NCBI GenBank assembly: GCA_007449985.2
Contig: VIIQ02000188.1
Location: forward strand, 50,001 to 114,000
From: Desmodesmus armatus
Taxonomy: Eukaryota > Chlorophyta > Chlorophyceae > Sphaeropleales > Scenedesmaceae
Length of the DNA stretch: 64,000 nt
Direction of reading: 5' to 3'
Shown here: piece by piece, positions 2,009-53,220 of the stretch
Layout of the letters: each line of letters opens with the position of its first letter
Position numbering within the stretch: the stretch's first letter is position 1
The notes under the pieces: generated by a model
What the model was told of the DNA's origin: nothing
The model's input: only the letters and a program-made list of their open reading frames with translations
Databases searched by the model: none
Made by a program: the position numbers and the translations under genes

Positions 2009-5000
2009 ATGTTGCAGCGTCTGTCCTCTGCTAGCTGCAGGGGCGCCATGGCCCTGCGCCATACTCCTTGCTTCACATCTCACTCTCAACCGACACTCAG
2101 ACGGCTGCTAGTCCGATCCAACTGGCACCTCAGAGCAGCTACAGCAGAGGTTGTCACCACCAGCCAACCCAGCAGCAGCAGCCCAGATGCAGCAGCAGCA
2201 GCCCCTGCACCAGCGTACAAAGTCCCGCTGGATTTCAAGTTCATCAGGGATAACGTGCAGATGATTGCAGAGAATTGTAAGCTCAGGAACAGCAGTGCAG
2301 ATCCAGCGCTGGTGGCCCAGCTGTATGAAGAGTTTTTGCAGATAAAGGCTGAGAGTGAAGCGCTGCGGGCCAGCAGGAACGAAAATAGTGCAGCGATGAA
2401 GGTGAGAGTGGTGCACATGTAGGCAATTGAGTGGTGCTGTGTTGGTGCAAAGTCTGGGTGCAGTCGGGTGCAGTAGGGTGCAGGGTAAGAGGGGGGGGGG
2501 GGGGCAAGCAGGAAAGGCAAGGCACAGCAGTGAAGTGTGGGAGCTCACAGACAGGCAATTGGGATCAAGGCAACATCCATTGTGTGTGAATTGCTAGTGC
2601 TGGTTGGGTGAAGTAGCTGCACACGCAAGTGTGGGGGAAGGGGGGGGGGGGGGGGGCTGTGGGCCGGGAGCAACACTGCTGCAGCTTTGAAGGTGTGAAC
2701 AGAGCAAATGAGGGTGGTTGTGTGCGGCCTGACGCAATTGTGCTCCAAGTGATGATCAGGGGCTGCGCAATATGCGTGGTGTCAGGTACAGGCAGTTCGT
2801 TGAGGGAGGGTGAGCCTAGATGTTGTAGAGGACGCAGCAGTCACATTTCCACCCACAATGGCAGCAGTGCTGAGATGCTTCAAAGGGGAGGACCGGTCCA
2901 GACTACATCGGTGACTGGACTAAAAGCTGTTGGCCTGGGTCGCTCCTCCTTGGGGTCCACTGAGGGCCTGGGGGAGGGGGGGGGGGGGGGGGGAGGGAAG
3001 GGGGCACATACAGGTCTGTTGCTCTCAGCAGTGTGTGGTGTTGCAAGGACAACCTGCCACCCAACCAACCAACCAACCCCATCCCAATGAAGTCGCTCAT
3101 GCCCGTGTGCCCCTTCCCCTCTCCCCTTATGCTGATTTGCTGCTGCCGTGTCCGCCACTCCTCAGGGCAAGCTTGAGCCTGATGCCCGCCAGGCCCTGAT
3201 AGCCAAGGGTCAGCAGCTGAAGCAGCAGCTGGAGGAGCTGGAGGAAAAGCTGGTGCAGGTGGGTTGTGCGTGCGAGGGGGTCAAGGCAGCAGGTAGAGGT
3301 GCAGTGGGGGGGGGGGAGGGGGGCTTTGGTGTTGTGGACAACAACAGGTAGAAGCAGCAGCTGGGGAAGCTGGAAGAGAAGCGGGTGCAGGTGGGTGGGT
3401 GTAGCTGGCCCCTCGTTTGGTTGTGTGTGGGGGTAGGTGGGGGTACTAGGACAGGGTTGAAGCAGCATGTAGAGAGGGGGGGTTGTTGCGGTAAACATTG
3501 GAAACAAGCAGCAGTTGGAGGAACGGGAGGAGAAGCTGGTGCAGGTGGGTGGGGGGTAGCAGCTGCCTCCATCATGGGGGAGGGGGGTGGGGGCTGAAGC
3601 AGCACCTAGAGGGGCTAGATGGGGCAGGGGGGAGGGGTGCCTTTGGTGGTGTAGTGCAGATTGTGTTGCGACAGGGGGGGGGGGGGGACTAAAAGCTGAA
3701 GCAGCAGCGATTGGCGCGTGTGAGTGCGTGTGGGCGCCAGTGGGGGATAGGGAGACAGGGGGGGGGGGGCAGGGATGGGGACGGGAGGGGGGGTAAGGGA
3801 GCGGAAGAGGGTGGCGGGTGATGGAGGGGGCGGGGGGGGGGGGGGGGGGCAGTATGTGCGAGGGGGGGGGGGGGGGCATGTGACTTGGTGGAGCTGTCAG
3901 GTGCACACTTGAGGCAGCAGCTGGCCCTTTGGTTGGTGTGTACTGGGGCGTTGTGTGCTTATGTAGGAAAATGTTCCTAACCAGATGAAGAGCATGCGAA
4001 AGTATCTACTTACATCAATGTCGAGGAAGCGAAGAACAAAATGCTGCCCCCCCCCCCCTCCGGGCGCCTCGCCCATGTCCCATTACGCGGCGTGTGTTGA
4101 ACCATGTGACGGTAACAAGACCTGAGCTCTGTATCTGATAACTCTACAGCGTCAGAAAGTGGCATCAGTTTCCCCTGGCCAGCACTCATCTGATCCTGCC
4201 CCCCCTCCTATCTCCTTCCCGCCCTGTTCAGGTTGAGAACAGGCTGCAGGTTGAGGGTCAGCGCATACCCAACCTGACACACCCCCAGGTCCCCATATCA
4301 AATGATGAGGACGCAGCCACCGTGCTGAGCCTGGTGAGTGACGCTGCTGTGCGCACATGTGGGTTGGGGGGGGGGGGGGGGAGGGGGTTGTGCATGGCCC
4401 TGGTGTTATCAGTGTCATGCTGATCAGGGGGGCTTTCAATGCCTGCAACAAAGCAGAGCCTGGGGCATAAGCCCAGTCTGCCGCACCCCGGGGGGGGGGG
4501 GGTGACATGTGACTGCCAGAGGCATTGAAGTTATGTCGGTTTGGGCTTTGCCAGCCACAGTGCTGAGCCTAGCAGAGTACACCTAGTCTGGTACAAGGGA
4601 TCAATCCGCAGCCGCGCAGGGCTTGTCACTGCGCAAACCTCAGCAACATGCCACTAACTGTGTAGCACTTGATGCAGGGTTTTGATTGCCTACAGCTGTC
4701 AGGAGGACGGATGTCTCTCCCAAGTGCCCCTCAGGCAGCAGCCATTGCCGCTTGTGCCTAGCAGCAGCCATCTCTGCAGCAGCCGCTGATCAGTCGTTGC
4801 CAGCTTGATGCCATAGCTCCTGCCAGTGTGTCGTCTTTCATGCGTGGCCAGCATCAGTTGTGGTGTATGGCAACAGCAAGGCTCTTGCAGCATATTCTGT
4901 GTTCAATCAATGCCTCTGCCATGTATGTGGCTCTGCTGTTGCCTCTGTGGCTGTGTCACGTGAGTTGTGCCTGCCCCTGCTGCCCCAGGTTGGTTCTCAG

Positions 5001-53023: not shown

Positions 53024-53220
53024 GGCGCACTATGACCATCTTATACCCAAGGTCATCAGCAAGCTGTGAGGGCAGACAGAGCTGATGTATCAAGGCAAGG
53101 CAGCAAGTTGTGACGGCAGCCTGAGACAGGCTGCACAGTTACACTGATGTGTGCAAGGCATGAATGGAATTGGTGGTCAAATTGTGCAAGAGCGGGTTTT
53201 TTTCTGCCCCCTGCTGTTGG
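53024..53220 (+). repeat. Copy of OTU last exon end plus 3' UTR
   Basis: GCGCACTATGACC..CCCAAGGTCATCAGCAAGCTGTGAGGGCAGA repeats the last coding bases, stop codon and 3' UTR start of the OTU gene (from about 52757). The match resumes at 53150-53190 (gcaaggcatgaatggaattgg) against 52833-52870. The duplication therefore covers a terminal exon without any splice donor. Confidence 0.8.

Follow-up and report, generated by a model that had tools for sequence, protein, structure and literature searches.

Partial exon copies beside splice junctions in introns of the green alga Desmodesmus armatus and their probable origin in recurrent local tandem duplication

Introduction

Small tandem duplications arising from the repair of DNA breaks are well known. 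To go by their titles, Zhuo et al. (2007) reportedly traced human introns to tandem arrays, and Gao and Lynch (2009) are said to have treated internal gene duplication as a source of introns. Here we deal with partial copies of exons that lie in the introns of the green alga Desmodesmus armatus, within a window of 64,000 nucleotides that corresponds to positions 50001-114000 of contig C184 (VIIQ02000188.1; the assembly comprises 115.8 Mb in 831 contigs). Exact exon models cover two genes of the window, SerRS and a HAD-hydrolase-like gene (HAD), while the copies in a coiled-coil gene were judged by eye. The intronic exon copies in the window are confirmed as real, and they probably stem from recurrent DNA-level tandem duplications of an ordinary type, about 80-300 bp long and internal to genes, that are concentrated at intronic runs of G or C.

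The type of the single event is known. In the potato RdRp gene, a tandem genomic duplication that spans a single intron-exon boundary made a new intron (PMC4974935), and the preliminary description of the window, which knew of no named mechanism, was thus mistaken on this point. The potato case resembles the alga in being a small, local, direct duplication whose copy carries the splice signals of an existing intron. It differs in being one event that yielded a new intron, whereas the alga has many events, ladders and a link with G/C runs, and gives no sign that the duplications made new introns. In Rogers-type intron gain, reviewed in PMC3443670, an exon segment with AGGT is duplicated in tandem; this likewise involves gene-internal duplication at AG/GT-like sites, but there the duplication inside an exon becomes an intron, while in the alga existing introns receive pieces of exon. 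Fill-in by CST/Pol-alpha-primase at breaks yields small tandem duplications (PMC8355091), and rice duplications have been ascribed to asymmetric nicks (cited in PMC7407515). Both cases share with the alga the short local tandem duplication and offer a candidate mechanism for it, although the passages compared hold no tie to introns or splice borders. Introners, in the portion of the source consulted, are elements copied into many genes of one genome (PMC9860276); many intronic copies per genome are a common trait, whereas the readable units of the alga match their own exon and intron. Finally, unlike in tandem or mutually exclusive exon duplication, no whole exon with both splice sites is copied in any exon-touching family of the seven genes compared or among the 20 copies in SerRS and HAD.

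Among the entries listed by literature searches, none described copies of this kind in an alga, which does not prove absence. The density of the copies, their ladders, their link with G/C runs, the excess at junctions and the pattern of silent changes appear to be new. Since the alga seems to produce partial exon copies with genuine splice sites repeatedly, it is a natural system where the supply of decoy splice sites and of raw material for new introns and exons could be measured rather than inferred from single cases. It also ties intronic G/C runs to gene-internal duplication.

Local direct repeats in the window

The window was compared with itself with homopolymers masked and at spacings below 700 bp, with ten local dinucleotide shuffles as control. 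Direct pairs numbered 48 in the window and zero in the shuffles, while inverted pairs numbered zero in both, self-matching palindromes falling outside this count (the script skips any stretch that matches its own reverse complement). Three self-complementary palindromes are present, at 23046-23149, 40112-40210 and 53571-53603; the first two are imperfect, about 100 bp long and 83% and 89% identical to their own reverse complements.

The direct pairs group into 24 families with 61 disjoint copies and thus 37 extra copies, all within 3219-53189. The number becomes 34 when three families are dropped, namely two wide-spaced ones (583 and 677 bp) and the family at 8515-8791, which is the intron part of another family. 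Identities range from 73 to 98%, and the nearest spacing is 98-298 bp in 22 of the 24 families. These values bear out the earlier count of more than 35 copies and the view that duplication was repeated over time; the ladders reported earlier are likewise present, and the spacings of the families span a wider range than the period of 105-200 bp then given.

At the level of exons, 11 of 30 pairs of an exon and its adjacent intron in SerRS and HAD outscored the best of 225 non-adjacent pairs (score 31), one of them barely (33 vs 31), and the best reverse-strand score for adjacent pairs was 23. The winning pairs were downstream in 9 of 15 cases and upstream in 2 of 15. At E up to 0.001, the best SerRS candidates in the assembly comprise 15 matches, every one at the SerRS locus, and the copies appear among those listed by matching a stretch of the protein that is already matched by an exon. 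Pure chance as their source is ruled out by the adjacent-intron scores together with the absence of pairs from the shuffles.

The duplicated unit

The winning SerRS and HAD pairs contain 20 copies, and all of them keep to the side rule of the preliminary description, by which copies upstream of an exon carry its 5' part and copies downstream its 3' part. In particular, the six upstream copies start no more than 7 bases from the 5' end of the exon and have AG at the expected place or one base off. All 14 downstream copies derive from the 3' part; 12 of them reach within one base of the exon end, one ends 16 bases early, and GT directly follows in 10. The copied exon stretches measure 16 to 90 nt, with a lowest identity of 0.80. 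The copies thus create AG and GT decoy splice sites, as had been anticipated, and gene prediction in such algae may call false exons.

In the donor test, the intron following the real donor was compared with the sequence following the copied donor, with 200 shuffles and the introns of other units as controls. The donor-side intron part exceeded all the shuffles and all the other-unit introns in 6 of 14 comparisons, representing 4 of 8 exons. Base-by-base alignments indicate that several units carry intron along, with gaps chiefly at G-runs. A clean young case of a unit that crosses from exon into intron is found outside the window, in the CCT chaperonin gene L029 (contig C601), where the repeated unit of 124 bp consists of 64 nt of exon and 60 nt of intron, the first part of the intron being identical between original and copy. 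Close, direct copies with a contiguous unit are thus seen in the six comparisons and in L029. Where copies can be read, they thus represent contiguous DNA duplicated in tandem, and for the remaining ones we infer the same.

Since the unit, where readable, runs from exon into intron, the duplication probably occurred at the DNA level and not by way of reinserted spliced RNA. The preliminary description had considered the re-insertion of splicing intermediates, to which fragments of complementary DNA entering introns may be added, and it is true that the exon homology of most copies stops at the true splice borders. Yet several units continue into unspliced intron, the copies are local and direct with no inverted pairs at spacings below 700 bp, and none of the SerRS matches listed lies off the locus, which leaves this origin scarcely credible. 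A copy of joined exons was also absent among the 20, though the comparison used single exons only.

A further possibility is an introner-like insertion, in which a G- or C-rich filler enters beside a splice site and duplicates the adjoining piece of the exon. L029 lends itself to such a description: its exon copies are parted by the intron part of the ladder unit (L029:4901-4960), a telomere-like filler of 60 nt (TTAGGG/TTTAGGG) that begins with GT and ends with AG, and the last copy is followed by a different intron sequence. However, the six positive comparisons, from two genes, match their own unit above the introns of other units, and the length of the copied stretch varies as given above. 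We consider this explanation very improbable.

With tandem duplication of contiguous DNA, units that span a single junction while the working exon stays intact suffice to produce the side rule; indeed, the exon is left intact if an acceptor copy lands upstream or a donor copy downstream. Copies are truncated on the far side since one end of the unit falls within the exon. The rule of the preliminary description stands and requires no special machinery. Whole-exon copies were found in 0 of 15 exon-touching families in seven genes (SerRS, HAD and five CCT chaperonin genes), where 21% would be expected (P=0.03), and none of the 20 SerRS and HAD copies comprises a whole exon with both splice sites either. 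The present SerRS and HAD models place all of these copies in introns.

Preference for splice junctions

The same seven genes hold 21 families, or 18 independent ones after removal of three that are intron parts. Among these 18, 15 cross a junction, counting as such the L029 and HAD exon 6 donor families, whose matches fall within the annotated exon and reach its end. Random placement on introns shortened by the added units predicts 7.3 of 18 (P=0.0002), in a model whose removed lengths were set by hand, as were the chaperonin exon borders (from the ranges of hidden Markov model (HMM) matches and splice signals). SerRS and HAD contribute 10 of the 15 junction families and are part of the finding itself, and therefore are no independent sample; in the CCT genes alone, 5 of 7 families cross a junction.

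Part of this preference could arise from ascertainment. Duplications might be random in position, those containing exon remaining recognisable for longer because selection holds one of the two copies. By eye, the copied exon parts are usually better kept than the adjoining intron parts, and if exon parts were 1.5 or 2 times more detectable, the expected number of junction families would rise to 9.0 or 10.2 of 18. The observed 15 still lies above both values (P=0.003 and 0.016). Moreover, all 11 independent families with a best identity of at least 90%, for which decay matters little, touch the exon at a junction, and two further families of this class are their intron parts. Ascertainment is therefore an unlikely account of the whole, albeit the strongest of the competing ones, and it was set aside as the full cause of junction-centring, as was mere random placement. 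The junction excess is real but moderate, and it is explained in part.

G/C runs

Runs of G and C are unevenly placed in the introns of SerRS, HAD and two CCT genes. On the coding strand, 55 of 82 G-runs of at least 6 lie in the first 40% of the intron, and 16 of 26 C-runs of at least 6 lie in the last 20%. Over 145 bins of two kb, the number of runs correlates with the coverage by duplicates (rho 0.45, neighbouring bins not being independent); all 11 bins with at least 8 runs hold duplicates, as compared with 26% of the 92 bins without runs. Of 11 donor-side copies, 7 have a G-run of at least 6 in the 20 nt that precede them, where 2.2 would be expected (P=0.0014), and the excess is also found for runs of at least 5 or at least 8 (P=0.007). 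The earlier suggestion of a link with homopolymers is thus upheld. The window is rich in such runs: those of at least 8 occur at about 2.1 per kb, against 0.14 per kb in sixteen stretches from other contigs, but runs of 16 are only about 2.5 times as frequent as the genome average (1172 vs 476 places per Mb).

On either side of the window, contig C184 (L025-L028) is run-rich as well, and three of these four stretches have many local duplications. One of them contains direct pairs of 98.5-98.8% identity that lie 2.5 kb apart (L026:1956-2824 and 4486-5354) and are a recent larger duplication.

Substitutions in the copies

Changes between copy and exon were counted in 17 copies, the three short ones (27, 19 and 16 nt) being left out of the 20. 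The 93 mismatches are distributed over codon positions 1, 2 and 3 as 24, 13 and 56, and 63 of them are silent. When each distinct change is counted once, in 16 copies (the SerRS exon 8 copy is unchanged), 50 of 79 are silent, or 57 of 91 with 12 chaperonin changes counted by eye (7 silent, 5 not). Codons with two changes were scored per base, so that half of a leucine change (CTC/TTG) in 6034-6122 counts as non-silent though the peptide is identical. The expected silent share is 0.28 if everything is neutral (0.30 by a simpler count) and 0.44 if a neutral copy is set against a constrained exon at kappa 4 (P about 0.0003-0.0005); at kappa 6 the latter model gives P 0.0009-0.0013. These P-values are optimistic because changes within one ladder are not independent. 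Among the differences between copies, too, silent changes are frequent (40 of 68). The exon peptide is kept exactly by 5 of 16 copies, including 6034-6122 despite six base changes, while some copies have frameshifts and amino-acid changes.

The silent excess may come from allele exchange, from a period of coding use or from a mutation bias outside the model. Gene conversion was discarded as its cause, on the argument alone that it should not raise the silent share. If the copies were in use, as alternative or regulatory exons under selection on protein sequence, both the silent share and the exactly kept peptides would be accounted for. Nevertheless, each copy comprises exon sequence from a single junction, some are frameshifted and their identity falls to the low values given above, and we give such use a very low probability.

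Exactly kept peptides are also what alleles would show, and the copies are associated with homopolymers; both points could be taken to indicate an assembly artefact, in which diverged haplotype pieces or faulty contig ends were joined in tandem at homopolymers. Against it stand ladders of 3-5 mutually diverged copies, some of them frameshifted or with amino-acid changes, the lack of a second SerRS haplotype among the matches listed and the absence of any N in L001-L024, and an artefact is accordingly very unlikely.

Another reading is that each copy preserves the state of some other functional allele and was produced when breaks at intronic G-runs were joined between diverged homologous chromosomes, with junctions as true hot spots. 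This would explain the silent excess, unlike neutral decay (0.28) or the constrained-exon model (0.44). If it were true, copies would be born differing at silent sites and introns would be a stacked record of past alleles. We regard it as rather improbable.

Proposed origin of the copies

The explanation that we favour, and hold to be probable, remains recurrent tandem duplication inside genes. Duplications would be concentrated at long intronic runs, of G on the donor side (coding strand) or of C on the acceptor side, where a break or a stalled fork at a G-run may be repaired by fill-in and joining. A candidate route is CST/Pol-alpha-primase fill-in of 3' overhangs, which would duplicate the stretch between two nicks, and further units of a ladder may be added by later slippage or unequal exchange. 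Selection would then retain for the most part units with no more than one junction, since in these the working exon is intact and the copy gets one splice site only, while whole-exon or within-exon units would be removed because they would enter the messenger RNA. Such a filter would lead to AG with the exon 5' part upstream and the exon 3' part with GT downstream, and the copies would decay after duplication.

Several results weigh against this explanation. In 8 of the 14 donor-unit comparisons the intron homology was not above the controls, and contiguity is assumed there. A first, junction-anchored test placed only 2 of 14 donor comparisons beyond 300 shuffles; its acceptor side speaks for the explanation, with 6 of 9 beyond all 300 shuffles, without the control of other introns. 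This comparison was replaced by that of whole units because indels in G-runs shift the homology. The positions of the ten donor-side breakpoints are those at which the local alignments stop. Outside contig C184, the correlation with runs is weak (rho 0.22, P=0.037, 93 bins), while near direct matches number 12 in L014, which has 0 runs, and 11 in L020, which has 2. With anchoring at runs, the junction share to be expected is only 0.31 instead of 0.20 for G-runs at donors and 0.37 instead of 0.18 for C-runs at acceptors, and such anchoring was rejected as the full cause of junction-centring; the excess over random placement persists even with slower decay of exon parts. Finally, the silent-site excess does not follow from tandem duplication.

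Spread beyond the window

Sixteen 10-kb stretches from other contigs contain 48 direct and 2 inverted matches less than 1000 bp apart, with at least one direct match in 10 of the 16; this comparison is at the level of repeats. The five CCT genes were taken from the table of a chaperonin HMM search and compared at the DNA level. Junction copies are present in two of them, L029 and L030, so that the preliminary statement that nearly every gene has such copies was too strong. L031 has an intron-only copy that adjoins the acceptor and L033 an intron-only copy, while no copy was found in L032; L032 and L033 have no run of at least 8. A piece of 900 bases from a tRNA-synthetase gene (L034) showed no repeat. 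The idea that the genome outside the window is free of such copies was dropped, as the HMM table missed short copies that the DNA comparison found.

Genes and copies along the window

The SerRS gene (2009-10617, plus strand) has ten exons, at 2009-2401, 3166-3258, 4232-4333, 4989-5081, 6404-6583, 7917-7977, 8254-8390, 9448-9552, 9953-10098 and 10333-10617, with a splice-consistent frame until a frameshift in the last exon. Its best protein matches are from Scenedesmaceae, namely Scenedesmus sp. NREL 46B-D3 (76%) and Tetradesmus obliquus (83%). The frameshift, of one base, lies between FCHT and LNAT in the last exon and is either a sequencing error or decay; the assembly has no other SerRS of this type among the matches listed.

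The SerRS copies follow the order of the exons, all on the plus strand. The 3' part of exon 2 has three copies, at 3351-3390 and 3506-3544, both with GT, and at 3593-3619, which is 16 bases short of the junction. Exon 3 has a short, marginal donor-side copy without GT (4552-4570, 18/19), and the 3' part of exon 4 one that keeps GT (5263-5338, 66/76). The 5' part of exon 5 forms an acceptor-side ladder of three copies (5852-5933, 6034-6122 and 6199-6261), each preceded by a C-run and CAG, and its 3' part has donor-side copies at 6855-6942, 7135-7220 (84/86, GT lost) and 7331-7346. Two of the upstream exon 5 copies end at 6492 and the third at 6468, while the two longest downstream copies begin at exon positions 6494 and 6497; positions 6492-6497 are a shared breakpoint, which may be a hot spot or may mark where an intron once lay. 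Two donor-side copies of the 3' part of exon 7 lie at 8572-8643, which extends into duplicated intron (8749-8801), and at 8963-9037, and one of exon 8 at 9675-9699 (25/25).

By self-comparison, the coiled-coil gene on the plus strand has donor-side copies at 22120-22723, read by eye, and a five-copy ladder at 23444-24051, which by eye consists of acceptor and exon 5' part.

The HAD gene (44417-48717, minus strand) has seven exons in an uninterrupted frame, at 48717-48547, 47953-47906, 47203-47081, 46803-46718, 46083-46014, 45223-45032 and 44530-44417, and owes its identity to Pfam PF13242 on the open frame of exon 6 (E=2e-10). On the same strand, the 3' part of exon 6 has a donor-side copy that stops 4 bases short of the exon end (44823-44892), and its 5' part an acceptor-side ladder of three copies (45337-45298, 45436-45396 and 45546-45511). 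Donor-side copies of the 3' parts of exon 4 (46441-46495, 54/55) and exon 1 (48359-48381, the unit running on into the intron) complete the set. A four-copy ladder with nearest spacing 144-169 was found by self-comparison at 49808-50327.

The Rfam scan of the window gave no match at gathering thresholds. Among 20 open frames, Pfam found just HAD and leucine-rich repeats, plus a weak S14 below cut-off. The leucine-rich repeats lie at 59706-61379 on the minus strand and overlap the region of a 1.5-kb direct pair (59245-60753 and 62437-63961, 77% identity), which is probably a tandem gene pair.
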